IMG/VR virus record: IMGVR_UViG_3300021976_000025
Location: 1 to 48,454 of that record
Length of the DNA stretch: 48,454 nucleotides
Origin: a virus
Strand: one strand, 5' to 3'
Positions within the stretch are counted from its first letter, which is position 1, and every line of letters begins with the position of its first letter. Under the pieces are notes generated by a model that saw only the letters and a list, made by a program, of their open reading frames with translations, was not told where the DNA came from and made no database searches. The position numbers and the translations under genes were made by a program. Below, piece by piece: positions 4,845 through 45,612 of the stretch.

Positions 4845-4881
4845 TTTTAAGTGTGTCGAGTTCTAGGAATAGAGTGTGTCG
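4845..4881 (-). repeat. Tandem pair of CGACACAC elements
   Basis: Two copies of the 14-bp element read on the minus strand, in the sense of the downstream gene: CGACACACTCTATT starting at 4881 and CGACACACTTAAAA starting at 4858. Their starts are 23 bp apart. They fill the 50-base gap between the polymerase stop and the next start codon, with the second copy running almost into the ribosome site. The same tandem spacing occurs at 26997/27020 and 45580/45603. Confidence 0.75.
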
Positions 4882-7515
4882 TTACCACTTAATAGGCTCT
4901 GCATCTCCCCAGGACTTCCTGGAAATCTTGCAGCCCCATGGGATGATGAGTGGGTCTTTATACGGAACTATAACTGAGTTTAGCGCTTTTTTTACTTCAT
5001 CGAGTCTATCTCCGTATCTGATTGGCCATTGAGCGATGAGAGAGTCGTGGACTTGGAGGAGTAATTCTACCCACGGACATTGATCGCGGAGAGCTAAAGC
5101 TCCCTTGTTGGTATTGATGGCGACAGTGGACTGAGGAAGCCACGCAAGAGCTTTGGTAAATAGATCGCCGATTCGATCAAAGTACACGATACGATATCCA
5201 AACTTATTACCAATCGTTCGCCCGAGTATTGCTCCACACTCAGTACATCCACGACCTCCGGAGGAAAGCGTGTTACAGCGCCAACATTGAATACCGGCCA
5301 GTTGTCGGTGGGTCCGATTATGCCACTCCTTGATACCGGGGTGAAGATAAAACCACCGCTCGTGGAACTCTTGCTCTTCAGCCAGAGAAGTGCGGAGCTT
5401 CGTAACAAATGTTGCAGGTTGAGCACCATAATTTGTGCCGTGGACTCGGCGCTTAGAATTATGATAGATACCGCCGTTATGGTCGGTGCGCTTGAGTTCT
5501 TCATCGGTCATGTCCTTAGTACGTTCGGGATATAGCATCCTCACGTTGTGGATGTGGAGCTTGAGATTGTTTCGGAATGCGGCTTTCAAATCGTCGTCAT
5601 TGGCTTCCCAGGCGACGGCTTGGGCGTCGGCTCCGGCAAGGTCGAATTCGGCAATTTCGTAGCCGGAGTCTGGAGTAAAAGCTTTACGCATATTAGGAAA
5701 GTCGTACTCATCTGACTCGTTTCCACTCGGAATGTTCTGCATGTTTCCGGCGCGGCCGTAGATGTTTTCCGAGGAAGATAAGCGAAAAGTATCAGTACCA
5801 GTAAGGTTGTAGCTACAACGCATACGAAGATCAGGGTCTGCTTCAGCTTCTGCGAATGTTGAATGGTAGACACCGAGAGACCTCCTGAATTCGAGTAAAT
5901 CAATTGCTTTCTTTACTATCGGTTCGCGTTGAGCAATGATAGGCAGCGCTTCCTTGTCGGTCGAGGTCCGCTTCAGGTCTTTATGGACTCCACGTTGGTT
6001 CTTGGCGTAGACGGGGGAGATGCCGAGGACGTCGTAGAAAAGAGTTTTCTGTTTGGTCGGTGAGCGGTACCAGGGCTTGGAGCCTTTTTTGCTAGGAATC
6101 AAGTCGGTTGAGACCATCGGAGCGAGACGAGTGTCGAGAGTTTCGAGTTCGTGAAGAAGTTCACTTGCAACTCGCTTCCGATCCTCGGGGTCAGTTCGTA
6201 TCCCGCGAGTCATCATGGGGAGGAGCATATCGTTGGCGACACGCATCTGAGTGTCAAATTGGTCTTGTAAACCGAAGCTAGAGATAAGATCTTGAAGTTC
6301 GAATTTGATCTCGAAAGTTTTAACTGCGTCTTTACAGTTGTAGTTCCATAGAACGTCTTCGGTTTCTTTAGTCCAATTCTTGCCTTCGTCTTTCCAGAAC
6401 ACATGGTGCTGACAATACAGAGAGGATAAGTTGAACAAAGCTTTCCGTTGAATGCCTTGAGTTGCAGCTTTCTCACTAGTCGGATCACCGCCGCCAGGCC
6501 AGACAGTATGGTGAGCAACCATCGTGTCGAATGTAATACGCGGCCGAACAAACATTTGATCGATCATGTATTGAATGTCATACAAGAAATTCTGGCCTAT
6601 TAAGCGCAGATTTGGATGCGCTAGGATTCTCCGAAGTAGCACCAGAATGACGAATTCTTCGTGAGCTGCCCAGTAACCGGCCTCGTTCTCTTCGCAAAGA
6701 AATGGAATGCAGATTGCTCGACGGGGGGAATCCGCAATACCAAGACACGCGATAAGTCCGTCTCTAGTTTCTTCGTCGAAGGCAAGTTCGAGTTCGCGGG
6801 TAGAAAGTTCTTCAAGGAAATATTCGAGCCGCTGAACAGTTTGTTCGAGATTTGGTCGGAGCGTAAAGTCATAGTCGGGTTCTCTCCAGAGATCGTTTTC
6901 GGTGCCGGAAGTGAATGCGAGTTTGACACGAGTTTTCAAGTCGTGTTTGATCATATAACGCCAAGGGAATGTTCTCAACCCTGCGGCTGGATGATATGTT
7001 GGTAGAAACGGAATTGAGCCCATATAAGGAGTGGTATAAAGTTGGGAGCCACGCCAATTACCGATACCGCTGGGTGCACGATATCCTCGTACATTGGAGA
7101 TTCCAAACGAACCATGAGTGAGAGCCCATAGCGTGTAATTTCCAAGTCCGATAATGATCTTGGGTTTGATAGCAAGAATTTGTTCGCGGAGATTAGAGAG
7201 GCCGATGAGTACGTTCTCATGGGGATAAAGTTGATTGGTGGATAAGAGCTTTGCACTTTTCGCCTCCTTCGTGGTGTAGAAGAAATTCGTCATTTCGTTG
7301 TTCGCGGGGCGTTCGTTGATGACGTTAGTGAAGAAACAATCGTGAGGGGATAAACCTGACTCGTAGAGCAAAGCGTCTAGGTCTTTGCCAGAGTCGCCGA
7401 CGAATGGGCGACCAGCGGCTTCTTCAGATCGGCCGTAGCTCTCGCCGACGATCATGATTTTTGAGGACCGGGAACCTTTAGTACCACGGAACGCTTGGGC
7501 GAGGTCGATTGTCAT
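4882..7515 (-). CDS. DNA polymerase family A with N-terminal uracil-DNA-glycosylase-like domain
   Basis: This 877-residue replicase has three domains. Residues ~15-230 form a family-4/5-like uracil-DNA-glycosylase fold (VGESYG, GRPFVGDSGK, late TYHPA), but the cysteines that hold the iron-sulfur cluster in family 4 are absent. Residues ~240-420 are a 3'-5' exonuclease with the three expected motifs: FDEE at ~247, NFLYD at ~311 and YNCKD at ~395. The polymerase domain has motif A (FDLAGADAQ, ~627), motif B (KRRVHGTNYG, ~690) and motif C (VHDSL, ~823). A CxxC-x9-CxxC zinc ribbon is inserted at ~744-762. All catalytic carboxylates appear present. The ATG overlaps the upstream stop (ATGA). SPO1-type phage polymerases are a known precedent for a UDG-like fusion. 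Confidence 0.93.
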   Translation of the reverse strand: MTIDLAQAFRGTKGSRSSKIMIVGESYGRSEEAAGRPFVGDSGKDLDALLYESGLSPHDCFFTNVINERPANNEMTNFFYTTKEAKSAKLLSTNQLYPHENVLIGLSNLREQILAIKPKIIIGLGNYTLWALTHGSFGISNVRGYRAPSGIGNWRGSQLYTTPYMGSIPFLPTYHPAAGLRTFPWRYMIKHDLKTRVKLAFTSGTENDLWREPDYDFTLRPNLEQTVQRLEYFLEELSTRELELAFDEETRDGLIACLGIADSPRRAICIPFLCEENEAGYWAAHEEFVILVLLRRILAHPNLRLIGQNFLYDIQYMIDQMFVRPRITFDTMVAHHTVWPGGGDPTSEKAATQGIQRKALFNLSSLYCQHHVFWKDEGKNWTKETEDVLWNYNCKDAVKTFEIKFELQDLISSFGLQDQFDTQMRVANDMLLPMMTRGIRTDPEDRKRVASELLHELETLDTRLAPMVSTDLIPSKKGSKPWYRSPTKQKTLFYDVLGISPVYAKNQRGVHKDLKRTSTDKEALPIIAQREPIVKKAIDLLEFRRSLGVYHSTFAEAEADPDLRMRCSYNLTGTDTFRLSSSENIYGRAGNMQNIPSGNESDEYDFPNMRKAFTPDSGYEIAEFDLAGADAQAVAWEANDDDLKAAFRNNLKLHIHNVRMLYPERTKDMTDEELKRTDHNGGIYHNSKRRVHGTNYGAQPATFVTKLRTSLAEEQEFHERWFYLHPGIKEWHNRTHRQLAGIQCWRCNTLSSGGRGCTECGAILGRTIGNKFGYRIVYFDRIGDLFTKALAWLPQSTVAINTNKGALALRDQCPWVELLLQVHDSLIAQWPIRYGDRLDEVKKALNSVIVPYKDPLIIPWGCKISRKSWGDAEPIKW

Positions 7516-7850
7516 TTCAGATAATCCTCGGGAAGCAAATACGTGGTGGGGAGATAAATCGAGTTGGCGAAAGTGATTTCTTCAGCAACGCCAACTGATT
7601 CTCGCCAGCCAGGAAGTTTCAGCACATATAGCCCGTCCGCTTTACGGAGGAAATCGATTGAGAACCGTTGCCAGTATTTGGCGTCTTTCGGGAGATCGTA
7701 GAGCACTGTCATTTCGTGGTTGTGAATAATCGGCGACCAGACAAACTTCCCTTGGCGAAGAAGTGCTGCAAGACACTTCATGGTTTGTCGAACTCGATCC
7801 TCGACGATTTCTTGAATAGGATGAGAGTAAGGTGATGCGAGATAGATCAT
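7512..7850 (-). CDS. DUF1937 family protein, deoxyribosyltransferase-like
   Basis: The 112-residue protein begins MIYLASPYS and contains SPIIHNHE, then W..FSIDFLRKADGLYVLKLPGW..SVGVAEEI. This is the pattern of DUF1937 proteins, related in fold to nucleoside 2-deoxyribosyltransferases, so a role in nucleotide metabolism is possible. I chose the ATG at 7850 over two upstream in-frame starts because GGAGG lies seven bases before it and it overlaps the stop of the small upstream zinc-ribbon gene (ATGA). The stop in turn overlaps the polymerase start. The substrate cannot be read from the sequence. Confidence 0.75.
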   Translation of the reverse strand: MIYLASPYSHPIQEIVEDRVRQTMKCLAALLRQGKFVWSPIIHNHEMTVLYDLPKDAKYWQRFSIDFLRKADGLYVLKLPGWRESVGVAEEITFANSIYLPTTYLLPEDYLK

Positions 7851-7972
7851 AACCATTCCTCCGCGCCGCATTTATAACAGCGATAGATTGTGAATACATT
7901 GCCGTGAATGACAATCGAACAAACGCACTCACCAGGCGGACATTGCGGTTTTGGTTTCGCTTTCTTCTTCAT
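7847..7972 (-). CDS. 41-residue zinc-ribbon protein
   Basis: This short frame reads MKKKAKPKPQCPPGECVCS then a TIYRCYKCGAEEWL end. It has a Lys-rich start and five cysteines (C11, C16, C18, C32, C35), which suits a zinc ribbon with a closing CYKCG knuckle. It begins three bases after the upstream stop and its own stop overlaps the DUF1937 start (ATGA), so it fits exactly into a chain of translationally coupled genes. The tight packing and cysteine pattern are the evidence that it is real. Function unknown; nucleic-acid binding is plausible. Confidence 0.75.
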   Translation of the reverse strand: MKKKAKPKPQCPPGECVCSIVIHGNVFTIYRCYKCGAEEWL

Positions 7973-7975
7973 GAT

Positions 7976-8173
7976 TCACTCTTCGTTCTCATCTTCGTTT
8001 GTTTTGGAGAGTATTCGAGCACAATCGGGACAGACCGTATACGGTCCGAAACCTCCGCCGGCCAAGCCATACATTGATTCGGGCAAAGCTTTTGGATGCT
8101 GCGGACACCGAATCTTTTGATCGAAGTCTGGAAGTCCTTTGCGCTTCTCACTGCTATCGATAAGTACACTCAT
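7976..8173 (-). CDS. Small Cys/His protein, hypothetical
   Basis: The 65-residue product has RCPQHP near residue 22 and VCPDCARIL near residue 47, a Cx2H...CxxC arrangement consistent with one bound zinc, then an acidic tail (NEDENEE). The start ATG overlaps the stop of the ParB-methyltransferase gene (ATGA), and the next gene begins three bases after its stop. No family was recognised. Confidence 0.7.
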   Translation of the reverse strand: MSVLIDSSEKRKGLPDFDQKIRCPQHPKALPESMYGLAGGGFGPYTVCPDCARILSKTNEDENEE

Positions 8174-9486
8174 AGCGCGTTTGTCTCCAATTCAACTAAA
8201 AGCTTCTTGCATATTTCAGAGTAATGCGGATCGTTCTCGATTCCAGTTGCAGACACTTTAACGGTTTGAGCTGCATGGAATATTGTCCCGGAGCCACAAC
8301 AGGGATCAAGAACCTCATCGTTTGCAAGACACGATAATTTGAGCAAAAGCTCATAGATCGCAACGGGTTTTTGCGCCGCATGGATTTTTTCGCCATCACG
8401 GGAAGAAATCGGGATAACATCTTGGAGCACTTGCGAAAGGCCTCGTGTATCGGATCGTTGGGCGAAGAGCAAGAGTTCTGATCCTCGTCGGATATTCGCT
8501 TTACGCAAGATATATCCAGTCGAACCTTTACTCCAGATGAGCGGAGTACGAAAGACGGTCCATCCATAGGATCGTGCCACTTTACGAAGTTCAAGGAAGA
8601 GTTCGATATCGCAGAACATCCATAAGTGCGCGTCATGAGTAGCAAGCTCCGAACAACGGTGAAAGAGCATTGAAGAGAATGCTAGAGCTGAGTCTATGTC
8701 GTCTTGGTATTTATGCAACTGCTCAGCTGGAGAGTTCCCAGGATGGAACGTATCCGCATCTATTCCGTAAGGTGGATCAATAATGAAACACCGGAATTTC
8801 TTCTTCTGCTTAATGAGCTTAGGAAGATGTTTTTCAGCGGAACCGTCGAGGATGGTGTGCCGAGACTTAACATTGCGCCCAAGCTTCTCGGCAAAGTCAT
8901 CCCGGAGGATTTGCGCAGCAGCGTTAAAAGCCCACCGTTCATTCTTAGCGGACCGGACTGCCGGGTGATCGAGAAACTCGCTCGTGACCATAGCACGGGA
9001 GATTTCGGCTTGAATGGTGCGCGAGTCGCCGCTCGCGGTCCTCGTGACGATCTCCTCGGCGGTTTTCTTATATGTTTGATCTGGATTGCGAGCAAGTCGC
9101 AGTTTATGGATTTCACTCTGCGCACGAACTTTATCCTGCCAAGATATATCTTCACGAATGAGGTTTTCGTCAAGCTCTTTCTCCATGGCATCGAGTACGT
9201 CGGTTGAGGTCACGTCAACAAACGGGATGCAATTCTCGGGGACGAGTTCGTTGTTGTAAGTGAAGGGAATATGGTCGACATGGAGCGCGATCATGGCTTG
9301 GAGTCTCCGCCAACCACCAACGAGAATGTGGCCTTCCCGGAGTATCGGAGCGTGGAATAACCCATGCTGCGCGATGGAGCGTTTCAGTTCGTCTAGGGCT
9401 TCTTGGGTGAAAGTTCTCCGCTGACGGTCTTGAATATCAATCATTATGATATTTATGAACCGTTGCGAGAATGAGGCTTTATTCAT
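8170..9486 (-). CDS. ParB-like domain fused to DNA methyltransferase
   Basis: The 438-residue protein has an N-terminal ParB/sulfiredoxin-like domain (residues ~12-115) with the GGWRRL box at 57-62, a helical middle region, and a C-terminal amino-methyltransferase of the beta order. In that order the catalytic DPPYG motif (~238) comes before the AdoMet-binding DPCCGSGT motif (~395). This predicts N6-adenine or N4-cytosine methylation. ParB-methyltransferase fusions are common as orphan enzymes in phages, usually to protect DNA from host restriction or mark it. No matching restriction enzyme is visible nearby. The start overlaps the upstream stop (ATGA). The target site cannot be read. Confidence 0.88.
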   Translation of the reverse strand: MNKASFSQRFINIIMIDIQDRQRRTFTQEALDELKRSIAQHGLFHAPILREGHILVGGWRRLQAMIALHVDHIPFTYNNELVPENCIPFVDVTSTDVLDAMEKELDENLIREDISWQDKVRAQSEIHKLRLARNPDQTYKKTAEEIVTRTASGDSRTIQAEISRAMVTSEFLDHPAVRSAKNERWAFNAAAQILRDDFAEKLGRNVKSRHTILDGSAEKHLPKLIKQKKKFRCFIIDPPYGIDADTFHPGNSPAEQLHKYQDDIDSALAFSSMLFHRCSELATHDAHLWMFCDIELFLELRKVARSYGWTVFRTPLIWSKGSTGYILRKANIRRGSELLLFAQRSDTRGLSQVLQDVIPISSRDGEKIHAAQKPVAIYELLLKLSCLANDEVLDPCCGSGTIFHAAQTVKVSATGIENDPHYSEICKKLLVELETNAL

Positions 9487-10525: not shown

Positions 10526-10532
10526 GAGATAT

Positions 10533-14534: not shown

Positions 14535-15470
14535 TCAATCAGTGCCATGCACAATACCCTTGTGCAGCGGGTTCCACTCGAACCGAGCGAAAGTGTCAAA
14601 CCAATTCTCGGGATGCTCGCTAGTGCATAAGTCCATCATTTCGCATCCACCGTACGAGCCGCAGATATCCCCGTAGTTCATCGGGAACTCTTTCAGCTTC
14701 CAGCACGTGACGAGGAACTGGACCTTCTGGAGCATTTCCATATACCAGCGATCGACTTGCCATTGAGGATAAGAGAAGATCGCTTCTAGGTGCTTGATTG
14801 CGCGTTGTTGGATGGCGATCCCTCGCACCACGCAAAGATTCACCGGCATTTCGTATTGCTGAGCCGCCCAGGTGTAGCCGAGAAACTGTCCACGCATAGC
14901 GAACACTCGCGACCAGTCGGCGTTAAAGCTATAGGTCGTTTTCTCGTCGACGATCGCTAGCAGATTGGATTGCTGAGTGAGTTGGCCTACCATATCGCAT
15001 CTTCCAGCATAGATAAGGGGCTCGCCGGTATCGGGATGCATAATAGGCAGAGGGATGGAGAAAGTGAACTCGACTGCTGGAGAACCGTCAGCTTTGCGGA
15101 AGGGTTGGATATGGTCAGTCTCGGGATTGTAAGTCTGGAAGTAGTCGAACACAGCTGCGAGTACGTTGCAGAAATCCTTGTAGCTGCCAGACGGCGCATC
15201 GTATTCGCCCCAATATTTGATGAATTCTCGCATACCTTCGAGCAAGGCGCGATCAAGCCCGGCGTCGTCGCGATAAAACTTCTCGCGGACTGTTTGCATA
15301 GCTTGGGCGAATGCGCCTCCGGCGTGGAGGTGAATTGATTTCTGACTTGGAGCTAAATGAAAGCAGTGTTTATAAAAGAACTTTGTCGGGCAGGCAGTTG
15401 TCAGCAAAATACTCGAGTCGAGCACTGAAGGAAACTTCGCCTCGGCGAGGACTTTATCAGAGAACTTCAT
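14535..15470 (-). CDS. Cas4/RecB-like PD-(D/E)XK exonuclease with iron-sulfur cysteines
   Basis: The 311-residue protein carries the RecB-type nuclease core: HAGGAF at 49-54, YAGRCDMVG with Asp159, VDEKTT with Glu176-Lys177, then QFLGYTWAAQQ at ~195-205. Cysteines at residue 27 and in a C-terminal cluster DICGSYGGCEMMDLC (~265-280) match the iron-sulfur ligands of Cas4/AddB-type enzymes. Expected activity is 5'-end resection of DNA to load the SSB/Sak4 recombination proteins encoded just downstream. No cas1/cas2 or repeat array is present, so this is a phage recombination nuclease and not an adaptation gene. Confidence 0.85.
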   Translation of the reverse strand: MKFSDKVLAEAKFPSVLDSSILLTTACPTKFFYKHCFHLAPSQKSIHLHAGGAFAQAMQTVREKFYRDDAGLDRALLEGMREFIKYWGEYDAPSGSYKDFCNVLAAVFDYFQTYNPETDHIQPFRKADGSPAVEFTFSIPLPIMHPDTGEPLIYAGRCDMVGQLTQQSNLLAIVDEKTTYSFNADWSRVFAMRGQFLGYTWAAQQYEMPVNLCVVRGIAIQQRAIKHLEAIFSYPQWQVDRWYMEMLQKVQFLVTCWKLKEFPMNYGDICGSYGGCEMMDLCTSEHPENWFDTFARFEWNPLHKGIVHGTD

Positions 15471-15483
15471 TATAATAACCTCT

Positions 15484-15606
15484 TCAAGGAAATTCGTGAT
15501 GAATTGTCGTCCACGGGTCGCCGGGAGGATGAGTGGTAATGTCGCAGCCGATGACGAGAGCGAGGATGAAACCGCAAGCTATGAGCACTTCTACCCAGGC
15601 TCGCAT
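15484..15606 (-). CDS. 40-residue membrane protein, possible lipoprotein
   Basis: The frame reads MRAWVEVLIACGFILALVIGC followed by DITTHPPGDPWTTIHHEFP. The first 21 residues form a membrane helix ending in LVIGC, which resembles a lipoprotein cleavage box, and the tail is polar with Pro and His. It starts five bases after the upstream stop and fills a 140-base gap otherwise empty of genes. The ribosome site is weak. A role at the host membrane is likely; nothing more can be said. Confidence 0.5.
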   Translation of the reverse strand: MRAWVEVLIACGFILALVIGCDITTHPPGDPWTTIHHEFP

Positions 15607-15611
15607 AGCGG

Positions 15612-15830
15612 TTAGAACCCCAAATCGCTCAAGGACTTCCCCGCATCGATGTTTTTCTCGGCAGCGGAGCCTTTGCCGCCTGCTCGCATAGTGCGGACAG
15701 TAGCGAGCAACGAAATCCCTTCCTTCAATTCACTGTCGGAAAGATCAGTCCCGCTCAACTGCTTGGTGCGAAGCTCATTAATCCGCGCGATGCAGTCGTT
15801 GATATCGAGTTGAGTTGCAGCGGCAACCAT
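15612..15830 (-). CDS. Hypothetical protein
   Basis: A 72-residue protein with AGGAG seven bases before ATG. Residues 8-50 form a predicted helical hairpin (DINDCIARINELRTKQL, then ELKEGISLLATVRTMRAG), and the tail KNIDAGKSLSDLGF is polar. This pattern recurs in small phage proteins near recombination genes, but I do not recognise a named family. Confidence 0.65.
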   Translation of the reverse strand: MVAAATQLDINDCIARINELRTKQLSGTDLSDSELKEGISLLATVRTMRAGGKGSAAEKNIDAGKSLSDLGF

Positions 15831-15831
15831 G

Positions 15832-16143
15832 TTATTTCTCCTTGTTCTGTTTCAAAATAGCGAGTTGGTGTTCGAGAAGAGTAATGAAATCGCTGTCGCC
15901 GTTTGTGACGAAACTGGCAGCAGCATCGATTTCATGGAATGGATAGCAGATAAGCACGAAACCGATTTCGCGATAGTCTCCGCGAAGATCGCCATTCATG
16001 GCTTCATCAAGCCCGCGAGCGATAGACTGGAAAGCCTGATATTGAGCTTTCATGATCTCGACCGCATCGTCGGCGGCTTGGTTGAGCATGTGCTCGGCGC
16101 CCGTTTTGCGAATATTAAGAATAGTTGTTTTCTTCTCATCCAC
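15832..16143 (-). CDS. Hypothetical protein with GTG start
   Basis: A 103-residue protein (MDEKKTTILNIRKTGAEHM...) with a helical N-terminal half and a strand-rich centre (YREIGFVLICYPFHEI). The start is a GTG with GGAGG about eleven bases upstream, overlapping the end of the ribbon-helix-helix gene by eight bases, so translation is probably coupled. No family recognised. Confidence 0.6.
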   Translation of the reverse strand: MDEKKTTILNIRKTGAEHMLNQAADDAVEIMKAQYQAFQSIARGLDEAMNGDLRGDYREIGFVLICYPFHEIDAAASFVTNGDSDFITLLEHQLAILKQNKEK

Positions 16144-16345
16144 GGGATTTCTTGCCTCCGGCTCCGGTGATTTTGATTTTATCGAGGTGTTCTTTGAGCG
16201 CGGTGTTGACGATATCGCTCAACACACCGTATTGAGGTTTTCCCCGCGCAGGATCGAAGTAATGGATTTGCAATTCAGTTAGCAAATCCTCTTTGATGTA
16301 GAGATTGATGCGTTTGCGAGCATCGCCATGTGCGCGTCTTCCCAT
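16136..16345 (-). CDS. Ribbon-helix-helix (CopG/Arc-like) DNA-binding protein
   Basis: The start ATG at 16345 has AAGGA nine bases upstream; the frame is open further up but without a start signal. The 69-residue protein begins MGRRAHGDARKRINLYI, a basic beta strand typical of the ribbon, then two helices (KEDLLTELQIHYF and YGVLSDIVNTALKEHL) and a basic tail. This is the size and pattern of Arc, Mnt and CopG repressors, which bind as dimers of dimers to tandem operators. Three copies of the CGACACA element lie 50-107 bases upstream at 21 and 23 bp spacing, making it the best candidate in this genome for the protein that binds that element. It may repress its own operon. Confidence 0.7.
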   Translation of the reverse strand: MGRRAHGDARKRINLYIKEDLLTELQIHYFDPARGKPQYGVLSDIVNTALKEHLDKIKITGAGGKKSRG

Positions 16346-16394: not shown

Positions 16395-16452
16395 CGACAC
16401 AATTTATCCGCCCAACGACACATTTTAAACCACGCAGACGACACAATGCAAG
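16395..16452 (+). repeat. Three tandem CGACACA elements upstream of the ribbon-helix-helix gene
   Basis: CGACACAATTTATC at 16395, CGACACATTTTAAA at 16416 and CGACACAATGCAAG at 16439, all read on the plus strand, which is antisense to the surrounding leftward operon. Starts are 21 and 23 bp apart. The stretch 16346-16488 holds no other gene. Tandem arrays in front of a small DNA-binding protein gene are typical of autoregulation. Confidence 0.7.
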
Positions 16453-24508: not shown

Positions 24509-24522
24509 GGCGACCTGCACAA

Positions 24523-24551
24523 TTCAATGTGTCGATTGCCGTATATATAAT
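24523..24551 (+). promoter_or_regulatory. Candidate rightward promoter P1, overlapped by a CGACACA element
   Basis: TTCAAT (24523-24528) and a perfect TATAAT (24546-24551) with a 17-base spacer. A copy of the repeated element, CGACACATTGAATT on the minus strand (24534-24521), covers the -35 box. If the element is an operator, its binding protein would block this promoter. Confidence 0.5.
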
Positions 24552-24687
24552 GCGTCCTTTAAAGCGTGTTTCGCGCGGGCGGCATGATCCTATGGCCCTA
24601 GCGCGTGGCACTGCCTAGCAAGGCTGACAGGGGCGATTGCGCGGCGATTCGCGGGCGATCCTAGCCAGCGATCAATGTACCTGGCAC

Positions 24688-24924: not shown

Positions 24925-25554
24925 ATGGCTAAGAACACACAGACTGTCGGCAACATGTCGGCAACTGCTATCGCCGCAACTGCGACTCCTGCCGCCGACG
25001 ACAAGAAGCGCAATGCTTCCAAGTCGCTTTATGTCGACAGCAAGGGCGAAACAACCCGGAGCCCGACAGCGGAGACTGAAATCGTTCGTTTCGTTTTCGA
25101 CGGTTTCGAGAACAGCCCGGTTGATCTCGTGATCGCTGATATCAGCGCTGCGATTTCTCATCTGGCAGTTTGCCAAGGGCTGAACATCAAGCTTCAGCGG
25201 TCTTACAACACCGCGAAGGGCAATGCCGCGCAGATGCGCGACGAATGCGAGGCGACTCGCGACAATCTCCTGAACGACGTCTGGACAAGCGAACGCGAAG
25301 GCGGCTTGCGTATCGGCGATCTTGCCGACGCAATCAAGGCGACACTTACCGACGAAGGCGAGTCCGTCGATGACGAACGCTTTGCCCGCATCAAGGAAAC
25401 GTTGAAGGACGAGTCCAAGCGCGACAAGGCAAAGGCGAGCCCGAAGGTGCAAGCGCACTTGACTCGCATCATGGCCGAAAAGGCAGCTGAACGCGCGAAG
25501 GTCGCGGGCGAAGCTGCCAGCAAGACGACTGAAAGCGGCTTGACGGACTTCTAA
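24925..25554 (+). CDS. Early rightward gene, hypothetical, highly expressed type
   Basis: A 209-residue protein with GAGGA nine bases before ATG, its own promoter region and a clear terminator behind it: a single-gene transcript. The N-terminal 30 residues are Ala/Thr-rich, the middle has EIVRFVFDGFENSPVDLVIADISAAI, and residues ~85-200 are charged and helical. Codon choice differs from its neighbours: it strongly favours AAG, GAC, GGC and CGC, as in highly expressed or host-like genes. No family recognised. Isolation as a monocistronic unit, plus codon use, suggests an abundant early protein or a recently acquired gene. Confidence 0.75.
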   Translation: MAKNTQTVGNMSATAIAATATPAADDKKRNASKSLYVDSKGETTRSPTAETEIVRFVFDGFENSPVDLVIADISAAISHLAVCQGLNIKLQRSYNTAKGNAAQMRDECEATRDNLLNDVWTSEREGGLRIGDLADAIKATLTDEGESVDDERFARIKETLKDESKRDKAKASPKVQAHLTRIMAEKAAERAKVAGEAASKTTESGLTDF

Positions 25555-25570
25555 CAGACTCTCGACTATC

Positions 25571-25608
25571 AACCCCACTAGGCTTTAACCGGCTTAGTGG
25601 GGTTTTTT
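25571..25608 (+). terminator. Rho-independent terminator
   Basis: AACCCCACTA (25571-25580) pairs with TAGTGGGGTT (25595-25604) around a 14-base loop and runs into six Ts. It closes the early rightward gene. This is the clearest terminator in the window. Confidence 0.9.
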
Positions 25609-25779: not shown

Positions 25780-26295
25780 TCAATCTTTTTTCATACCTCG
25801 CTTGAATATCTCCATCGCGTTTGGCGTTGGATCATGCGGCATTGACCCCAGACCGCTAGTCGGTAGCTTAGATGACTCTGGCACGTCAGGCGCGCGATAG
25901 CTTGCCATTGCCGCGCTTTCCTCTTTCTGGCTTTGTAACGTCCCTTGACTTGCCTCTTCAGCTAAAGCCGCATTGATCATGCTCGCAAAGCCTTGCGCTT
26001 TGGGTTGTACAATCAAAGTACAAGGTTCAAACATTCCCGCTTCCCGCTTCTCTTTAAAGTCTTTTGCATTGAACGCGATAGGCAAGCCATCTTTGTCAAC
26101 TATTCGCACCTCGATTTCTCTTTCAGCTTTAATTCCTGCCAAGTCTATCTTGTTAGTCTTTTCTGTTTTGAGAATTTGTGTTCTTTCGCCATAGATTTGT
26201 TGCCGGAGCCTTATCGCCTCTTTCAATGAAGCGAACGGGAATTCTCTAGGTTTGCTTGCCGCCGCGATAATCAAGTCTCGTAATACTTTCGCCAT
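25780..26295 (-). CDS. Hypothetical protein divergent from terminase operon
   Basis: A 171-residue protein, MAKVLRDLIIAAASKPREF at the start, a helical segment with RLRQQIYGERTQIL, then strands (REIEVRIVDKDGLPIAF) and a Ser/Pro-rich tail. It is the only leftward gene in this part. Its leader matches that of the terminase gene on the other strand: a CGACACACTTTATC element, then AGGAGAAACTCCCATGGC. So it is probably switched together with the late operon. No family recognised. Confidence 0.65.
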   Translation of the reverse strand: MAKVLRDLIIAAASKPREFPFASLKEAIRLRQQIYGERTQILKTEKTNKIDLAGIKAEREIEVRIVDKDGLPIAFNAKDFKEKREAGMFEPCTLIVQPKAQGFASMINAALAEEASQGTLQSQKEESAAMASYRAPDVPESSKLPTSGLGSMPHDPTPNAMEIFKRGMKKD

Positions 26296-26309
26296 GGGAG
26301 TTTCTCCTG

Positions 26310-26323
26310 GATAAAGTGTGTCG
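26310..26323 (-). repeat. CGACACAC element upstream of the leftward gene
   Basis: CGACACACTTTATC read on the minus strand, ending about five bases before the AGGAG ribosome site of the gene starting at 26295. It is identical to the copy at 26997 in front of the terminase small-subunit gene. Confidence 0.75.
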
Positions 26324-26366
26324 TTTACTTGGTTAGTCTAGCGTGATCTAGGTTAGATCGCAATGG

Positions 26367-26710
26367 GTCTAGTGTTTGACTAGCATTCTCTAGCGTTCTC
26401 TAGTTTATCTAGAAAGTGAAGCTATGGCCCTATTGCTTTTGGATTTTCTCCTGACCCTATGTGTTGATTGCTTTTCTGGTTAGTGTTTGCGAGTATTGTA
26501 TATTTGTATTTCAGTAGTTAGGAAAAAAAAAAAAACAAAAGAGAACGAACCAAGTACGACACAATGTATTATCGTCTACTCCCATTAAATACATATGCTC
26601 AACAGTATAGCTGAAAGGTAATTTAGCTTTGGGTCAGGAGGTTTTGCGGAACCAATAGGGCCGTCAACGTCAAATCTAGATAAACTAGAGATTGCTAGAA
26701 AACACTAGAC
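26367..26710. repeat. Large phased inverted repeat around an AT-rich core (divergent control region or origin)
   Basis: The left arm (26457 down to 26367, minus strand) and right arm (26631-26710, plus strand) share four blocks in order: GGGTCAGGAG, CAATAGGGCC, a 16-17 bp TCTAGATAAACTAGAG(A) block, and AAACACTAGAC. The first three start at 0, +22 and +44 in both arms exactly; the fourth is 11 bp further out on the left. The 173-base core is AT-rich, with a run of 13 As (26523-26535) and one CGACACA element (26557-26570). No gene is seen from 26296 to 27043. Phased blocks at two helical turns suggest cooperative protein binding at divergent promoters or an origin. Confidence 0.75.
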
Positions 26711-26956
26711 TAAGTATAGACGTGTTCGGCTGAACCCTAGACTAATGGGCCTGGCTGATAGTATGGGCCTGACTATACATGCTCTATGCTTGCCTCGGGA
26801 GCAGCGTGCTCGCATGGGAGTAGGTACCCAGCGCCACCCCCAGGCGGACGGCGGGAAACGCCCACGTACTACCTTTCGGAAAACCTATGCAGTTAGCTGG
26901 AACGACACACTTAATCCGCCGAAGGCGCAACCTTCCAGTGATCCATGCATTATATA

Positions 26957-26985
26957 TTGACTAGCAGATGCAATGCTCGTAAGAT
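26957..26985 (+). promoter_or_regulatory. Candidate sigma-70 promoter of the late operon
   Basis: TTGACT (26957-26962), 17-base spacer, TAAGAT (26980-26985). The -35 box matches five of six consensus bases and the -10 box four of six. Transcription would begin near 26992, just upstream of the tandem element pair, so a protein bound there could act as a roadblock or repressor. Confidence 0.55.
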
Positions 26986-26996: not shown

Positions 26997-27033
26997 CGAC
27001 ACACTTTATCGTTGGAAGTCGACACACTTAAAG
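26997..27033 (+). repeat. Tandem pair of CGACACAC elements before terminase gene
   Basis: CGACACACTTTATC at 26997-27010 and CGACACACTTAAAG at 27020-27033, starts 23 bp apart, ending ten bases before the ATG. A further single copy, CGACACACTTAATC, is at 26903-26916. Confidence 0.75.
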
Positions 27034-27043: not shown

Positions 27044-27823
27044 ATGGCGCAGAGCGATCAGATTCAAAGCGTGAAAGCTTGGCATGAAGAGCTGATGGAT
27101 TTTATGCTCGCGCAGCCACGTGCGGGGTTGAAAGAGACCTCGGAGTACTTCGGGGTTAGCATGTCGTGGTTGAGTGTCGTTAAGAACTCCGATGCGTTTA
27201 AGGACGCCTGGGAGAAGCGAAGAGAGAATCATTCGAGTGCTGTCAGTGTCAGCCTCGTGCAGAGAGTGGAGGCGTTGGCGGAAGTCGCGCTGGAGACAAT
27301 GACGCAGAAGTTGGAACGGGAAGGCGAGTCGATCGGCCTCAGCACCCTGCGCGAGGTGAGCGAAACTGCGCTGCGGTCGCTGGGGTTCGGAATGCGGGAG
27401 TCGCCGCGTGCGGGGCAGAACGCTCAGACCATCACGAACAACAACATGATCGTTGTGGATCGTGAGACTCTCGCTCGTGCGCGGGATGCTCGTGCGCGTA
27501 TGCAACTCGGTGAGCATACTACGCCCAGTTCCTCACTCGAATCCGCTACGATTGAGCAGACCGCGCTCTTGGGTGGACTTCGGGACCGCGAAGACCGCGA
27601 CGCTTCGCGGGAAATTCCGTCGAGTGAGGTATCGCCCTCCGAGAATCAGTCAGTTCGCCATGAGCTTGACCTCTCGGAGGGCGAGATTCTCGCAAAATCT
27701 CCTGATCCTCCGCGGAAAATTCAGGTGATAGACAATATTCCGCCGAAAAGGTTCGGAAATCCGGCGGATCAGACGGTGCTCGAGCTTTTTAGTGACGCTA
27801 TGAAAGGAAAAGTGACTCGATGA
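27044..27823 (+). CDS. terS: Terminase small subunit (putative)
   Basis: A 259-residue protein starting the late operon two genes before the large terminase. Residues ~20-60 form a helix-turn-helix (GLKETSEYFGVSMSWLSVV, then NSDAFKDAWEKRREN), as in small-subunit DNA-recognition domains. Residues ~70-115 are a helical oligomerisation-type segment (VQRVEALAEVALETMTQKL). The C-terminal half is Ser/Pro/Glu-rich and probably disordered. It would select phage DNA for packaging. The assignment rests on the HTH, the size and the position, so it is good but not certain. Confidence 0.72.
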   Translation: MAQSDQIQSVKAWHEELMDFMLAQPRAGLKETSEYFGVSMSWLSVVKNSDAFKDAWEKRRENHSSAVSVSLVQRVEALAEVALETMTQKLEREGESIGLSTLREVSETALRSLGFGMRESPRAGQNAQTITNNNMIVVDRETLARARDARARMQLGEHTTPSSSLESATIEQTALLGGLRDREDRDASREIPSSEVSPSENQSVRHELDLSEGEILAKSPDPPRKIQVIDNIPPKRFGNPADQTVLELFSDAMKGKVTR

Positions 27824-28484: not shown

Positions 28485-30035
28485 ATGTTGCAAGTGGAAC
28501 GCAAACTCGTCTATCCCGGAGATCAGCAGGTATTGCTGACCCCGCAGGAGATGGTTGAGCTTGGCGCAGTGGACTCGATGTTCTTCGCCGAGACTTTCTT
28601 TCCGAAGACTATGCGACAATCCTCGCCGATGTTCCACGGGAAGATTTGGGAGAAATTAGACTCCACGTCGCGGTTAGTAAGTCTCCAAGTTTTTCGTGGC
28701 GGGGCGAAGACTTCCATCTGTCGAGTGTTTGGCGCAAAGCGAATCGCTTATGGGTATTCTCATACTGTTCTCTGGGTCGGTAAATCCCAGGAGCATGCGA
28801 TACATTCCGTTAAGTGGTTGCGCAAGCAGATTGAATATAATCGCAGGTTCGCCGAAACATTCCAGCTTCGTCCTGGATCGAAGTGGCAAGATGTCGAGTG
28901 TGAGATTATCCACGGCATCGATGAGTATCCGATTACGATACTTGCGCTAGGCGTGACGGGTAGTGTTCGCGGAGTGAACATCGATGATTATCGCCCGGAC
29001 TTAATTATCCTCGATGATATACTCGATGAGGAAAACACGTCGACTCCAGTCCAGCGAAAGAAAACCGAAGACTTGGTGTATGGTGCTCTCAAAGAATCAT
29101 TGACTCCAAGAAGCGAAAACCCCGACGCCAAGATGGTTATGCTTCAGACTCCGCATAACAGCGATGACGTGTCGATGAAATCTCTTAAAGATTCGGAGTG
29201 GGATAGTGCGAGGTTCGGTATCTGGACTCCAGAAACTGAAAATCTTCAGCTTGCTGAACAAGAAAGTGCTTGGGAGATTCGGCACCCGACGCTCGAAGTG
29301 CGGGGAGAAAAGCAAGCAGCGATTAGTCGCAATCAACTCTCGATATTTACACGAGAGAAAGAATGTAAGATCATCTCACAGGAGACTTCAACATTCCTAG
29401 CGCGGTGGTTGAATTACTATGATCTGTCGCCTCCGCGCAACGAGATGCAGATCGTTATGGCGATCGATCCGGTTCCGCCGCCGAGTGAGGTGGAGCTAGC
29501 GAAGGGGCTGAAGGGTAAAGATTCGGAAGCGCTGACGGTTGTCGGACGCTATAAGCAGGATTTCTATCTGCTCGAGTACGCGGTTAAAACCGGTCATGAT
29601 CCGAGCTGGACCATTATGGAGTTCTTTCGGCTTGCGAGAAAGTGGCGGCCGCAGAAGATCATCGTTGAGACCATCGCGTATCAGAGGACTCTCGCTTGGT
29701 TGTTACGCCGGGCGATGGAAGCCGAGCGTCAGTATTTCGTGATACATGAGAACAGCGACAAGAGAAGCAAATACACGAAGATCGTGGATGGGTTGAGTGG
29801 AGTCGCGTCTAATGGGCATTTATTCTGCAAGGTCGAGCACGGGGATTTCATTCAACAGTTTACGGAATACCCCGACGTCCAGCACGAGGACGTACTCGAG
29901 ACTGTGGCTATTTGCTGTTCCGCTCTCCAAGGCGTGATGTACGAAGACACTTCCGAAGAAGCGAGCATCGAGAACATGCTCAAAGAAGAAGAGAAAACTG
30001 TTAAGAGATTGAGTGATTATCGAGGAGCTCCCTGA
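28485..30035 (+). CDS. terL: Terminase large subunit
   Basis: A 516-residue packaging motor. The ATPase has an atypical Walker A, VFRGGAKTS (69-77), and Walker B with catalytic acid LIILDDILDEEN (173-184), followed by the coupling-type MVMLQTPH. The nuclease domain shows MAIDPV (~324), VETIAYQ (~395) and HEDVLE (~467), three acidic positions expected of the RNase-H-like fold. It cuts concatemeric DNA and drives it into the prohead through the portal encoded next. The stop overlaps the portal start (TGATG). Confidence 0.93.
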   Translation: MLQVERKLVYPGDQQVLLTPQEMVELGAVDSMFFAETFFPKTMRQSSPMFHGKIWEKLDSTSRLVSLQVFRGGAKTSICRVFGAKRIAYGYSHTVLWVGKSQEHAIHSVKWLRKQIEYNRRFAETFQLRPGSKWQDVECEIIHGIDEYPITILALGVTGSVRGVNIDDYRPDLIILDDILDEENTSTPVQRKKTEDLVYGALKESLTPRSENPDAKMVMLQTPHNSDDVSMKSLKDSEWDSARFGIWTPETENLQLAEQESAWEIRHPTLEVRGEKQAAISRNQLSIFTREKECKIISQETSTFLARWLNYYDLSPPRNEMQIVMAIDPVPPPSEVELAKGLKGKDSEALTVVGRYKQDFYLLEYAVKTGHDPSWTIMEFFRLARKWRPQKIIVETIAYQRTLAWLLRRAMEAERQYFVIHENSDKRSKYTKIVDGLSGVASNGHLFCKVEHGDFIQQFTEYPDVQHEDVLETVAICCSALQGVMYEDTSEEASIENMLKEEEKTVKRLSDYRGAP

Positions 30036-33366: not shown

Positions 33367-34617
33367 ATGGCAGTTGCTGGCCTGAGAGGCACTGGTGACT
33401 GGAGCGCCGATGAGCGCCCTAAGAACTTCAGGGAATTGATTCTCTGGAGGAACCCGAATGGAATGACGCCGATCTTTGCGCTTTCAGCCCGGATTGGCAA
33501 AGAAAGCACTGACGATCCGGAATTTGCTTGGTGGACGGAGCCTAACGATATCGTCCGCTTGCAGATCAACGGCGCGATTCTGGCGGCGGCGACTACTGTC
33601 GTTGTCAACTCGGCCGATCCGGATGTGGCGAACCCCACTCTCAATTGGGGCACTGCTACTCACTTGAAGGAAGGTGATCAGCTGATGGTGGAGCCGGCAG
33701 CGGATGCTGCTGTGTTTGCGCCGGAGATCATGCGTGTGGTGAGTGTGGCAAGTGCGACGACTTTCACGGTTGTTCGTGGAACCGCTGGCACTACAGCCGC
33801 CAACATCGCCGACGATGTGTTCTTGCTGCTGATCGGCTCGAGCTACGCTGAAGGAACGCGGGCGCCGCTGTCCAACAGCAGAAATCCTGTCAAGTACTCA
33901 AACTATACGCAGATCTTCAAGGATACGTATGAACTTACCGGCACTGCGACGGAGACGAAGCTCCGTACCGGCGATCCGGTCAAGAACGACAAGAAGCGGA
34001 AGGCGTTCGACCACGCTCGCGCGATCGAGATGTCTCTGCTTTTCGGCCAGAAGTCGGAAGTCGTTGGGGCGAATGGAAAGCCTCAACGGACGTTTGATGG
34101 TATCCGGAAGTTTATCGCGGCGCAGAATACGAAAGTGTTTACTGCTCCGTATAATCTGAACGATTTCATCAATGCGATCTCGCCGGTGTTCGACTTCGAT
34201 ACGGAAGCGGGCGACACGCGGATTGCCTTCGTTGGCAACGGCGTGCTCAACGCACTCAACTATCGCATGGTGAACTCGGTCGGGCAGACTGCTCTTCGGA
34301 TCAACTACGATGCGAAGGCGACTGCCTGGGGGATGAACTTCACTGAGGTGATTCTGCCGCAGGGCAGGATTCTCATGAAGTCTCATCCGCTCATGAACCG
34401 CCACGCGATGTATCGGAATTCCATGCTCATTATGGATTTCTCGGCGCTCAAGTGGCGCCCGATGCGGAATCGCGACACGAAGTTCAAGGACAACGTGCAG
34501 CTTCCTGATGAGGATACGAAGAAGGGCTATTGGCAGACGGAGGCTGGACTGGAAGTCTGGCACGGTGGCCTGACGCTCGGATGGATCGGCGGCATGGATC
34601 AGGGAGTGCCGGCTTAG
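33367..34617 (+). CDS. Major capsid protein (SU10/DUF5309-like)
   Basis: A 416-residue protein with AGGAG seven bases before ATG. It begins MAVAGLRGTGDWSADERPKN, then a beta-rich insertion (~60-150: ILAAATTVVVNSA, HLKEGDQLMVEP, TFTVVRGTAG). It continues with KYSNYTQIFKDTYELTGTA and RAIEMSLLFGQKS, typical of the DUF5309/SU10-type HK97-fold capsid proteins. The C terminus has IDQ-like turns (GLTLGWIGGMDQG). It forms the icosahedral shell. The beta insertion between residues ~60 and 150 may be an Ig-like or I-domain extension. Confidence 0.85.
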   Translation: MAVAGLRGTGDWSADERPKNFRELILWRNPNGMTPIFALSARIGKESTDDPEFAWWTEPNDIVRLQINGAILAAATTVVVNSADPDVANPTLNWGTATHLKEGDQLMVEPAADAAVFAPEIMRVVSVASATTFTVVRGTAGTTAANIADDVFLLLIGSSYAEGTRAPLSNSRNPVKYSNYTQIFKDTYELTGTATETKLRTGDPVKNDKKRKAFDHARAIEMSLLFGQKSEVVGANGKPQRTFDGIRKFIAAQNTKVFTAPYNLNDFINAISPVFDFDTEAGDTRIAFVGNGVLNALNYRMVNSVGQTALRINYDAKATAWGMNFTEVILPQGRILMKSHPLMNRHAMYRNSMLIMDFSALKWRPMRNRDTKFKDNVQLPDEDTKKGYWQTEAGLEVWHGGLTLGWIGGMDQGVPA

Positions 34618-37950: not shown

Positions 37951-38253
37951 ATGACTAAAGAAACTCAGGACGCGATCGACGAACTGCGTGCGCAAGTTCA
38001 GCGGAATACCACTGTGACTCAGGGCGTGCAGACGCTGATCGCCAGTCTCGCCTCGCAGATCGAACAAGCCGCAGATGATCCGGAAGAAGTCCGTGCGCTT
38101 GCGGCGGAATTGCGGACTTCGACGGATGGCCTGGCGGCGGCAGTTGCGGCGAACACTTCGCCTTCGACTCCGCCAACGGAACCGGCGCCAGAAGAAGAGC
38201 CGGAAACAACTCCGGAACCTCCGCCTGCCGGCGACGACACAGACGCCGAGTAG
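37951..38253 (+). CDS. Coiled-coil hypothetical protein with alternative start
   Basis: From ATG 37951 (AAGGA eight bases upstream) this is 100 residues: a helical coiled coil (QDAIDELRAQVQRNTTVTQGVQTLI...AADDPEEVRALAAELRTST) ending in a Pro/Glu-rich acidic tail. An in-frame GTG at 37867, itself preceded by GAGGAGG, would add 28 very basic residues. Both starts have good ribosome sites. The pattern belongs to a common phage family of unknown function found near lysis and tail genes. Confidence 0.62.
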   Translation: MTKETQDAIDELRAQVQRNTTVTQGVQTLIASLASQIEQAADDPEEVRALAAELRTSTDGLAAAVAANTSPSTPPTEPAPEEEPETTPEPPPAGDDTDAE

Positions 38254-39586: not shown

Positions 39587-41194
39587 ATGCCTAATCTTCC
39601 GTTTTATATGGCTGGTGAAGCAGGCATCGTTAAAGATATCGCGCCGCATGAGTTGCCGCCGCTGACCTGGAGTGATGGAGAGAATGTGATATTCCGTGAC
39701 GGCAAAGTCACGCGGCGCGATGGACAGATTCAGAAATATGCGGGAAATCTAACACGTGTGTATTATGTACAGTTGGCGTATACTCCAACAAACGTGTTTT
39801 GGATTTATGCGGGTAATAATAATTTATCCGCCACAAACGGAGGTCAACACGCAGATATCACTCGATTGAGTGGGAATTACGCTCAACTCGATTATAATCG
39901 TTTGTGGGACGGGGGAATGTTTCAGGGGATTCCGGTTTTGACGAATGGGAAGGATATCCCTCAAGCTTGGACGACAGTCAGTTTGACTAATCGTATGGTT
40001 AATTTTCCTGCTTGGCCGGTGGGGTATGTTGCACGAGTTATGCGGCCGTTCAAGAACTTTTTAGTCGCAATGTATATCTCGCGGGGTGGGAATACTTACC
40101 CTAATATGATTTTGTGGAGCGATGCTGCTGATCCTGGTTCGATGCCGACAACTTGGGACGTAGCTGATCCGAATAATCTCGCAGGTGAAAGAGATTTGGT
40201 TGATGAATATCCGGGGGGTATCCGTGGAGCACTGGCGCTTAGAGATATTCTGATTATCTACAAAGACAATGCTGTGTGGGGAATGCAGTTCATTGGCGGA
40301 ACGCAAATTATGCGGACGTACCAGATTCTAGGGGGAATCGGAATGCTCGGAGCGCATTGTGTTGCGACGATCGATAAAGGCCAGAAGCACGTGTTCGCGA
40401 CATCGGATGATTTGATTGTTTTTGATGGGCAGAGTTCAGCAAGTGTTCTAGATAAGAAATGGAAGAAGTATCTCGCAGCGAATATCGATGCTACTACCGG
40501 CGAAAGAAGCTTTGTTATTGCTCGTGAGAAAACCACCGAAGTTTGGTTTTGTTATCCCGAAACTGGAAATGAATTTCCGAACGTCGCACTGATTTGGAAT
40601 TGGGCCGATGGCACAGTTTCGCATCGTAATTTAGGAGTACCGTTGAGTTCGGCTGCTGTTGGACCGGTTATCGACTCCGGTGATCCTTGGGATTTAGACA
40701 CTACAACTTGGGATACAGATACAACTATTTGGGACGCAGCGAATTTCCGTCCGGCGAATTTTGATATACTAGCAGCGGTGCCTAGTATATTAAGCGCTCC
40801 TTTAGAATCAAGTATGATGCTTCAACTAGAAGTTAGTCAGCAATATGTTGGAGGAGAGTATTCTGCGTATGTTGAACGGACGGATTTGGCTATCGGAGGT
40901 CAAAATCCTGATGGATCGCTCAAAGCTGATTTCGAAATGCGAAAGCTCGCGAAGAGAATTTGGCCTCATATTGAGGGAAGTCCTGTTCAGATACAGCTAG
41001 GTGCGCGTGAGTACGTAGACGAATCGACTCCGATAATTTGGGACGTTGCGCAGACGTTCACTCCAGGAGTGGATAAGTATCTGGACTTTACCGTCAATGG
41101 GAGGTTTATTTCAGTCCGCGTTCAGTCCGACATTGCCGGAGTTTGGAAATTCGAAGGCTACAATATGGAAATTGAGCCTCTAGGGAACTTATAA
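39587..41194 (+). CDS. Tail nozzle / stabilisation protein (P22 gp10-like in role)
   Basis: A 535-residue beta-rich protein. The opening WSDGENVIFRDGKVTRRDG is characteristic of the phage tail nozzle family, followed by many repeated blades (NNLSATNGGQ, YNRLWDGGMFQGIPVLTNG, TWDVADPNNLAG, HVFATSDDLIVFDGQS, IWNWADGTVSHR). The C-terminal part has DSGDPWDLDTTTWDTDTTIWD and a beta domain. It would form the tube below the adaptor in a short tail. Its presence, with no tape-measure gene, is the main support for podovirus morphology. AGAGAG lies seven bases before ATG. Confidence 0.78.
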   Translation: MPNLPFYMAGEAGIVKDIAPHELPPLTWSDGENVIFRDGKVTRRDGQIQKYAGNLTRVYYVQLAYTPTNVFWIYAGNNNLSATNGGQHADITRLSGNYAQLDYNRLWDGGMFQGIPVLTNGKDIPQAWTTVSLTNRMVNFPAWPVGYVARVMRPFKNFLVAMYISRGGNTYPNMILWSDAADPGSMPTTWDVADPNNLAGERDLVDEYPGGIRGALALRDILIIYKDNAVWGMQFIGGTQIMRTYQILGGIGMLGAHCVATIDKGQKHVFATSDDLIVFDGQSSASVLDKKWKKYLAANIDATTGERSFVIAREKTTEVWFCYPETGNEFPNVALIWNWADGTVSHRNLGVPLSSAAVGPVIDSGDPWDLDTTTWDTDTTIWDAANFRPANFDILAAVPSILSAPLESSMMLQLEVSQQYVGGEYSAYVERTDLAIGGQNPDGSLKADFEMRKLAKRIWPHIEGSPVQIQLGAREYVDESTPIIWDVAQTFTPGVDKYLDFTVNGRFISVRVQSDIAGVWKFEGYNMEIEPLGNL

Positions 41195-44539: not shown

Positions 44540-44874
44540 TGGACATGCAAGCGCTAATGCAGATGCTTATGCAGGCAGGCGGAATGGGAGGAATGGGGCC
44601 GCCCCAGTCTCAGCTTCCTGTCATGCCGCAGATGCAGGCAATGCAGCCTCCTCCTGGAATGGGAATTCCGATGCCATTCCAAATGCCTGGGATGCCTCAG
44701 CAAACTCCGTTATTCACGCTTCCGCCGAAACCAGTTGTGCCGGCAGTTGCGCCGCCAGTTACGGCACCGACGAAGAGAACGCCTCGGACGGATGATCTTA
44801 CTCGTGGCGGAAATGGTGGTGGTGCGCGTGGAGCAAGCTCCGGCGGCAACGGCAACGGCTTCGGAGGGCATTAA
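44539..44874 (+). CDS. Met/Pro/Gly-rich low-complexity protein
   Basis: The ATG at 44539 has GAGGAG eight bases upstream; a GTG three bases earlier is less likely. The 111-residue product is Met/Gln/Pro-rich at first (MDMQALMQMLMQAGGMGGMG), then Pro-rich, then a Gly/Asn/Ser tail with TKRTPRTDDLTRGG. Disordered throughout, likely a minor virion component. No family recognised. Confidence 0.6.
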   Translation: MDMQALMQMLMQAGGMGGMGPPQSQLPVMPQMQAMQPPPGMGIPMPFQMPGMPQQTPLFTLPPKPVVPAVAPPVTAPTKRTPRTDDLTRGGNGGGARGASSGGNGNGFGGH

Positions 44875-44876
44875 TT

Positions 44877-45302: not shown

Positions 45303-45303
45303 G

Positions 45304-45582
45304 ATGGCTTTAACTCCCACTCCGCTCGATCTTGGACGGGCAATGAATGCACTGATCGGGGCGCAGAAATTGAGTGTCGTGACGCCTCACGCGACAAATG
45401 AGTTAGCAAACGGCGTGTGTGATGCACTCTGGATCGGAGTCGCTGGTGATGTTGCAGTAATAGCCGAGAACGATTCCGTTGCGGTGACGCTTGTGGGTGT
45501 TCCGGTCGGCGTGCTTAATGTACGTACGAAGAGAGTTCTTGCAGTCGGAACAACGGCAACGAACATTGTCGCGATGAACTGA
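45304..45582 (+). CDS. Spike base protein (RCAP_Rcc01079-like)
   Basis: A 92-residue protein: VTPHATNELANGVCDALWIGVAGDVAVIAEN, then VTLVGVPVGVLNVRTKRVLAVGTTATNIVAM. The GVAGDVAV and the VGTTATNIVA end are characteristic of the spike-base family first seen in the Rhodobacter capsulatus gene transfer agent head spikes. It would form the trimeric base holding the spike tip encoded next. It starts one base after the previous stop, with AAGGAG seven bases before ATG. Confidence 0.75.
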   Translation: MALTPTPLDLGRAMNALIGAQKLSVVTPHATNELANGVCDALWIGVAGDVAVIAENDSVAVTLVGVPVGVLNVRTKRVLAVGTTATNIVAMN

Positions 45583-45612
45583 CACACTTTATCTAGAGGA
45601 GACGACACAATG
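45580..45612 (+). repeat. Tandem pair of CGACACA elements around the esterase start
   Basis: TGACACACTTTATC at 45580-45593 overlaps the stop of the spike-base gene; CGACACAATG begins at 45603 and runs into the ATG at 45610. Starts are 23 bp apart. The GAGGAG ribosome site lies between the copies, so a protein bound here, on DNA or mRNA, could control start of translation of the esterase. Confidence 0.7.

Follow-up and report, generated by a model that had tools for sequence, protein, structure and literature searches.

Dispersed sets of operators with a phage-specific sequence are best known from the cluster A mycobacteriophages, in which they define immunity groups. Many dispersed operator copies also occur in phage phiC31, whose c repressors bind conserved inverted repeats (CIR) located in gaps of the lytic region. 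The present analysis concerns a short repeated element in the viral DNA IMGVR_UViG_3300021976_000025 (IMG/VR), of which positions 1 to 48,454, hereafter the window, were analysed. The element recurs 13 times, mostly within or at the edge of intergenic gaps, and its copies are read, with a probability of about 0.65, as the operators of one phage-encoded, sequence-specific transcription regulator, for which a small protein resembling the ribbon-helix-helix (RHH) family is the leading candidate. The CIR of phiC31 are palindromic and belong to a repressor family different from that of this candidate.

The sites of the cluster A phages (L5, TipsytheTRex) are short and asymmetric, lie in promoters and short intergenic spaces, mostly along the direction of transcription, and differ in sequence between related phages (PMC9283540, PMC6550527). 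The window resembles these phages in its asymmetric 13-14-bp sites dispersed in promoters and gaps, but its sites are fewer, mostly paired at 23 bp and in three cases antisense, its relatives use inverted pairs, and the clade is unrelated. The candidate regulator, with 69 residues, also differs from the cluster A repressor, a two-domain protein of 183 residues, and no L5-type immunity repressor (helix-turn-helix plus stoperator domain) was found among the proteins searched against PHROGs and Pfam, which did not include every small open reading frame (ORF). By analogy, the element appears to work like the cluster A stoperators, a likeness in action and not an assignment to that group. The start-associated sequences (SAS) and extended SAS (ESAS) of the cluster K mycobacteriophages (TM4) are phage-specific sequences repeated near start codons, to which the ESAS add 17-bp inverted repeats with a spacer (PMC3203893). 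Nearness to gene starts is shared with the window; however, the SAS contain a Shine-Dalgarno sequence, whereas the element has no AGGAG, its core is placed 24-30 nt upstream of start codons, and some of its copies lie upstream of promoters or antisense to genes. The localized nick sites of phage tf and of phiKMV-like and T5-like phages (PMC3517423) resemble the element in being short consensus sites dispersed in podoviruses comparable in size, but they are confined to one strand and their consensus sequences are other ones.

Sequence, spacing and distribution of the element

A preliminary description of this DNA had listed 13 copies of a 14-bp element, nearly all of them non-coding. All 13 coordinates hold as starts of a 7-base core, CGACACA in 12 copies and TGACACA in one (45580). 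The recurrent word was confirmed, but conservation over 14 bp was overstated, since the 3' half differs in most copies and the exact 14-mer CGACACACTTTATC occurs only twice, at 26323 (minus strand) and 26997 (plus strand); with up to three mismatches it is matched 12 times in the window, against 3.6 expected. The most over-represented 8-mer of the window is ACGACACA (9 observed, 0.78 expected). A position-by-position count gave the consensus YGACACA-N-T-N-N-A-W, in which GACACA is invariant over the 13 copies and, beyond the core, T is found at position 8 in 13 of 13, A at position 11 in 12 of 13 and A or T at position 12 in all; the position between the core and the T is H, and two loose positions separate this T from the final A W. 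A dyad around position 7 (46% complementary) is too weak for the site to be called palindromic.

A weight matrix of 16 positions, made from the 13 copies and scanned on both strands, returned exactly 13 sites in the window at 17.4-25.0 bits, with the next-best place at 13.1, while the best score in 100 order-2 Markov sequences had a mean of 13.3 and a highest value of 20.8. As the matrix was derived from these same sites, the independent tests are the gap in score and the relatives. A 14th CGACACA, at 38235, is intragenic and without the 3' half. Ten of the 13 sites lie within or at the edge of called gaps, in a window of which about 8.4% is non-coding, so that the largely non-coding placement was borne out; sites 16395 and 16416 fall in a doubtful 5' extension of an ORF, and site 26903 in a 71-aa ORF lacking conservation in L111, the nearest relative.

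Nine sites form four pairs or triples, with starts 23 bp, or about two helical turns, apart (4858/4881, 16416/16439, 26997/27020 and 45580/45603) or, for 16395/16416, 21 bp apart. The spacer letters differ between pairs, which indicates that the half-sites have been kept and that the pairs are not fresh duplications. Neither this spacing nor a degenerate partner of site 24534 had been noted in the preliminary description. The sites and the features to which they relate are as follows.

4845-4858, minus strand: site, second of a 23-bp direct pair, starting 27 nt upstream of the ATG of gene 4412-4831
4868-4881, minus strand: site, first of the pair with 4858, directly past the stop codon of the DNA polymerase gene 4882-7515
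16136-16345, minus strand: gene of the small RHH-like protein (69 aa, Arc-like), candidate regulator, with homologues in relatives
16395-16408, plus strand: first site of a triple (spacing 21 and 23) that occupies the upstream gap of the RHH gene, antisense to this gene
16416-16429, plus strand: second site of the triple, in the same gap
16439-16452, plus strand: third site of the triple, in the same gap
24521-24534, minus strand: site heading the main leftward (replication) operon, adjoining an extended -10 promoter-like sequence
24544-24557, minus strand: degenerate partner of the 24534 site (GACGCATTATA), lying 23 bp upstream
26310-26323, minus strand: single site, starting 28 nt upstream of the ATG of the leftward gene 25780-26295
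26557-26570, plus strand: single site in the divergent control region, with its counterpart at L111:22
26903-26916, plus strand: single site upstream of the late promoter, with a 16-nt identical counterpart at L111:288-303
26957-26985, plus strand: sigma-70-like late promoter, TTGACT-17-TAAGAT
26997-27010, plus strand: first site of a direct pair (23 bp), starting 11 bp beyond the -10 hexamer and so at the expected transcription start
27020-27033, plus strand: site, second of the pair with 26997, starting 24 nt upstream of the ATG of the small-terminase-like gene 27044-27823
45580-45593, plus strand: site TGACACA, first of a 23-bp pair in the late operon, overlapping the stop codon of 45304-45582
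45603-45616, plus strand: site, second of the pair with 45580, overlapping the esterase start codon (gene 45610-46860)

The window is divided into a rightward late block (TerS-like gene at 27044, terminase at 28485, portal at 30035 and capsid at 33367 onward) and a leftward replication block running from 24522 down to 3130 (exonuclease, Sak4-like, Dda-like helicase, polymerase and primase genes). Six sites (24534, 26323, 26557, 26903, 26997 and 27020) lie in the control region that separates the two; the others are distributed over three gaps, one at the RHH gene (16395, 16416, 16439), one behind the polymerase gene (4881, 4858) and one ahead of the esterase gene (45580, 45603). When the surroundings of the 13 sites were scanned for promoters, a 9/12 promoter was found solely near 26997/27020, outside the element, together with one extended -10 near 24534. 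The element itself was rejected as a sigma-70 promoter, as it supplies no -35 or -10 hexamers.

Elements of related phages and the shared control region

In L111 (9.3 kb; identity to the window of 73% in TerL and 81% in the capsid), sites at 22, 290 and 415 upstream of TerS match 26557, 26903 and 26997/27020 in order and orientation, and one of them is a 16-base identity within poorly conserved non-coding DNA. A matrix scan of 2.59 Mb of relatives' loci found three further sites, all of them in L111 and none elsewhere. The nearest relative keeps sites at corresponding places ahead of its small-terminase-like gene, and the scans of the window, of random sequences and of relatives did not find them equally common in coding or random sequence. 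Among viral contigs, the exact 14-mer gave about 100 matches, one per contig, which is the level of chance, and the paired pattern was matched in 14 contigs, 13 of which share one conserved stretch, most likely coding, while the other was a lone match; no regulatory relatives were obtained in this way.

Relatives were also searched for short words recurring as direct or inverted pairs at fixed spacing. Three phages of the clade, G001 (IMGVR_UViG_3300012984_000002), G002 (IMGVR_UViG_3300025122_000045) and G003 (IMGVR_UViG_3300005253_000341), each carry their own dispersed two-part intergenic element, different in sequence from phage to phage, which is reported here as new. G001 has TACTTGTA-like direct pairs at exactly 23 bp and in mixed orientation at 3661, 11153, 13663, 21621 and 37627 (one mismatch per copy allowed), the last lying between the polymerase and primase genes, like the pair 4858/4881 of the window. 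G002 has the inverted arrangement ATTGTAAAA-N15-TTTTACAAT (24 bp) at 8265, 24275 and 32432, and with one mismatch at 40604, as well as single copies at 939 and 40360, with nine exact half-sites against 0 in the control. One of its pairs directly follows the capsid gene, one lies inside the interrupted polymerase gene and one is found 3' of the RHH gene; the one-mismatch pair is in the control region. Of the singles, one is close to the TerS promoter and the other in the control region. The polymerase gene of G002 (L207 11605-15899) is interrupted by a small gene together with a copy of the operator-like element of this phage, its C-terminal part being 15054-15899. G003 carries inverted pairs of ACTATATnnTGTGCA (ACTATATnnTGTGYA) at 3233, 7262, 13573, 25688 and 38081, the third of them lying between two late genes, together with single copies at 2382, 6411 and 8887; the half-sites at 2382 and 6411 lie inside near-consensus sigma-70 promoters (TTGACA-17-TACAAT), of which the one at 2382 is upstream of the RHH gene.

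The same pair search on 160 Markov-simulated genomes never gave more than 3 loci, against 5, 5, 4-5 and 4 observed. The places that recur across the phages are the early/late control region, late-operon gaps and the polymerase-primase region, often beside the small RHH gene. The pair search gave no clear set in many other relatives, some of them fragments, and repeats from L126, L130 and L168 were set aside as low-complexity coding repeats.

Phage records gave no DNA-level match for the control region, in which, as well as elsewhere in the window, several further features were observed. Its divergent part (26330-26750) holds a cluster of CTAG tetramers, 12 of the 102 in the genome, with two arms of 67 nt each (26347-26413 and 26675-26741) that are 72% complementary; it may represent another set of operators or else an origin. 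The control region contains a long homopolymer tract of A in the window (26524-26536), in L301 (G002 about 40404-40425) and in L117 (1091-1128). Upstream of the late promoter, a non-coding block GGTACCCxGCxCCACCCCC...AACGCCCxCG, with no Rfam match, is conserved between the window (26820-26880) and L111 (205-260). A rightward gene (24925-25604) lies inside the leftward region and is followed by a strong terminator (25571-25604); its homologues are near TerS in L114, L118 and L119 and inverted in L124 and L138. Around the ribosome binding site of gene 25780-26295, GGAG-AAA-CTCC (26290-26310) could form a small hairpin (z -2.1), and similar sequences occur at TerS (GAGAAAACTC) and at 4412-4831 (GAGAACTC). 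The latter gene, of 139 aa, lies between the polymerase and primase genes, has no detected homologues and is absent from L106, where the primase gene directly follows the polymerase gene. At 8170-9486, part of a DNA methyltransferase is fused to a ParB-like N-terminal part.

A candidate regulator and competing explanations

Each of the four phages encodes a version of the small RHH-like protein, and homologues are also present in further relatives, among them L106 and L107, where they lie near a homologue of 15612-15830, the neighbouring gene of the window. They were found by way of neighbouring genes only, a single-sequence search of viral contigs and phage records having returned none. A DP...G..S pattern is invariant in eight homologues, one relative's homologue gave a weak match to Pfam RHH_1 (E 0.11), and the best match in a profile search of PDB was a CopG/Arc/MetJ antidote chain, also weak (E 0.14). 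The residues of the beta-strand presumed to read DNA differ between the homologues of the four phages, as would be expected if their target sequences differ.

The proposed regulator would bind half-sites YGACACA-N-T-N-N-A-W, usually two together and 23 bp apart. It would occupy the divergent control region, over the start of the late promoter and near the leftward starts, and also certain intra-operon gaps (in the polymerase-primase region and at the RHH and esterase genes), from which it could set the level or timing of these genes. Repression is suggested by the overlap of sites with promoter starts, and a protein bound at 26997/27020 would be expected to hinder RNA polymerase. Because the gap upstream of the RHH gene holds the triple site, the RHH protein, if it is the regulator, would control its own gene; in G003 the promoter upstream of the RHH gene contains a half-site, the classical place for a repressor, which suggests the same. 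The regulator is accordingly read as probably autoregulated. From sequence alone, we infer protein binding, the phage origin of the regulator and its RHH identity, and the genome-wide regulon proposed in the preliminary description remains the best reading, as neither a lack of conservation in relatives nor an equal frequency in background sequence was found.

Some observations weigh against it. The family match of the candidate, to an Arc-like PHROG, is weak (E 0.021), and the RHH assignment consists of this match and of position; the predicted structures (AlphaFold) were poor and of low confidence, with no fold match in PDB. No pair adjoins the RHH gene in G001, the pair of G002 is downstream of it, and no element was detected in L106 and L107, which have the homologue. 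The repeats are direct in two phages and inverted in two, and one protein family need not explain both. The in-operon sites 4858 and 45580 are without promoter-like sequence in the sense direction.

The copies could instead act in mRNA leaders near ribosome binding sites, where they would be bound by a translation regulator, a mode of action that has been proposed for the start-associated sequences. Site starts lie 24-30 nt 5' of the start codon at four genes, copies 26997 and 27020 fall where the late transcript is expected to begin, and ten of the 13 copies read in the sense of the next gene, a count given earlier that is correct and, on its own, weak. The weight given earlier to orientation was not supported, as the triple at 16395-16452 is antisense to its operon and the G001 pairs are of mixed orientation, which together favour sites in double-stranded DNA over an RNA or polar element. 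In addition, site 26903 is upstream of the promoter, the G003 half-sites lie inside promoters and so would not be transcribed from them, and no consistent fold was found, with one of five leaders folding better than shuffled sequences and no Rfam match. An RNA element is accordingly regarded as unlikely, and as less likely than operators of a phage-encoded transcription regulator.

Ranked after it, and likewise improbable, is a role of the copies as targets of a DNA-binding protein of the host or as structural elements serving DNA condensation, partition, replication or site-specific nicking, which would be intergenic because they are tolerated in gaps only. The dispersal of the element, its partly mixed orientation and its direct repeats about two helical turns apart would suit such a function; the concentration in the control region and at promoters would not, and the element differs in sequence between relatives, which, except where their hosts also differ, argues against a single host protein. 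No ParA or ParM gene was found, and the only ParB-like domain belongs to the methyltransferase-like protein. Nick sites of the tf/LUZ24 group were rejected, as known nick sites are confined to one strand while the element is found on both, and their consensus TACTRTGMC has 0 matches in the window.

Least probable are polar stoperators, at whose oriented sites a repressor would block elongating RNA polymerase as in the cluster A mycobacteriophages. Like the sites described for L5 (PMC9283540, PMC6550527), those of the window are asymmetric, 13-14 bp long and mostly oriented along transcription, and they occur both in promoter regions and in short gaps, where they overlap stop or start codons. 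The mechanism could apply to in-operon copies with no obvious sense promoter, but three of the 13 sites are antisense, the inverted or mixed arrangements of relatives speak against polarity as a general rule, and no integrase or lambda- or L5-type repressor was found among the proteins searched.

Implications for the clade

Operators of a phage-encoded regulator, if this is what the 13 copies are, may be part of a wider pattern. It is tentatively proposed, at less than even odds, that a podovirus-like environmental clade shares one form of genome-wide control, in which a small autoregulated RHH protein would act on paired operators at recurring positions while the operator sequence, and even the choice between direct and inverted arrangement, would change from one phage to the next. 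Rapid turnover of this kind in a whole set of sites would, if true, give each phage its own regulatory, and perhaps superinfection-excluding, specificity. With four different sets at recurring positions in one clade of uncultured phages, and a small candidate regulator shared among them, a natural series for the co-change of a regulator and a dozen sites would be available, which may offer a way of predicting regulatory specificity from sequence alone.

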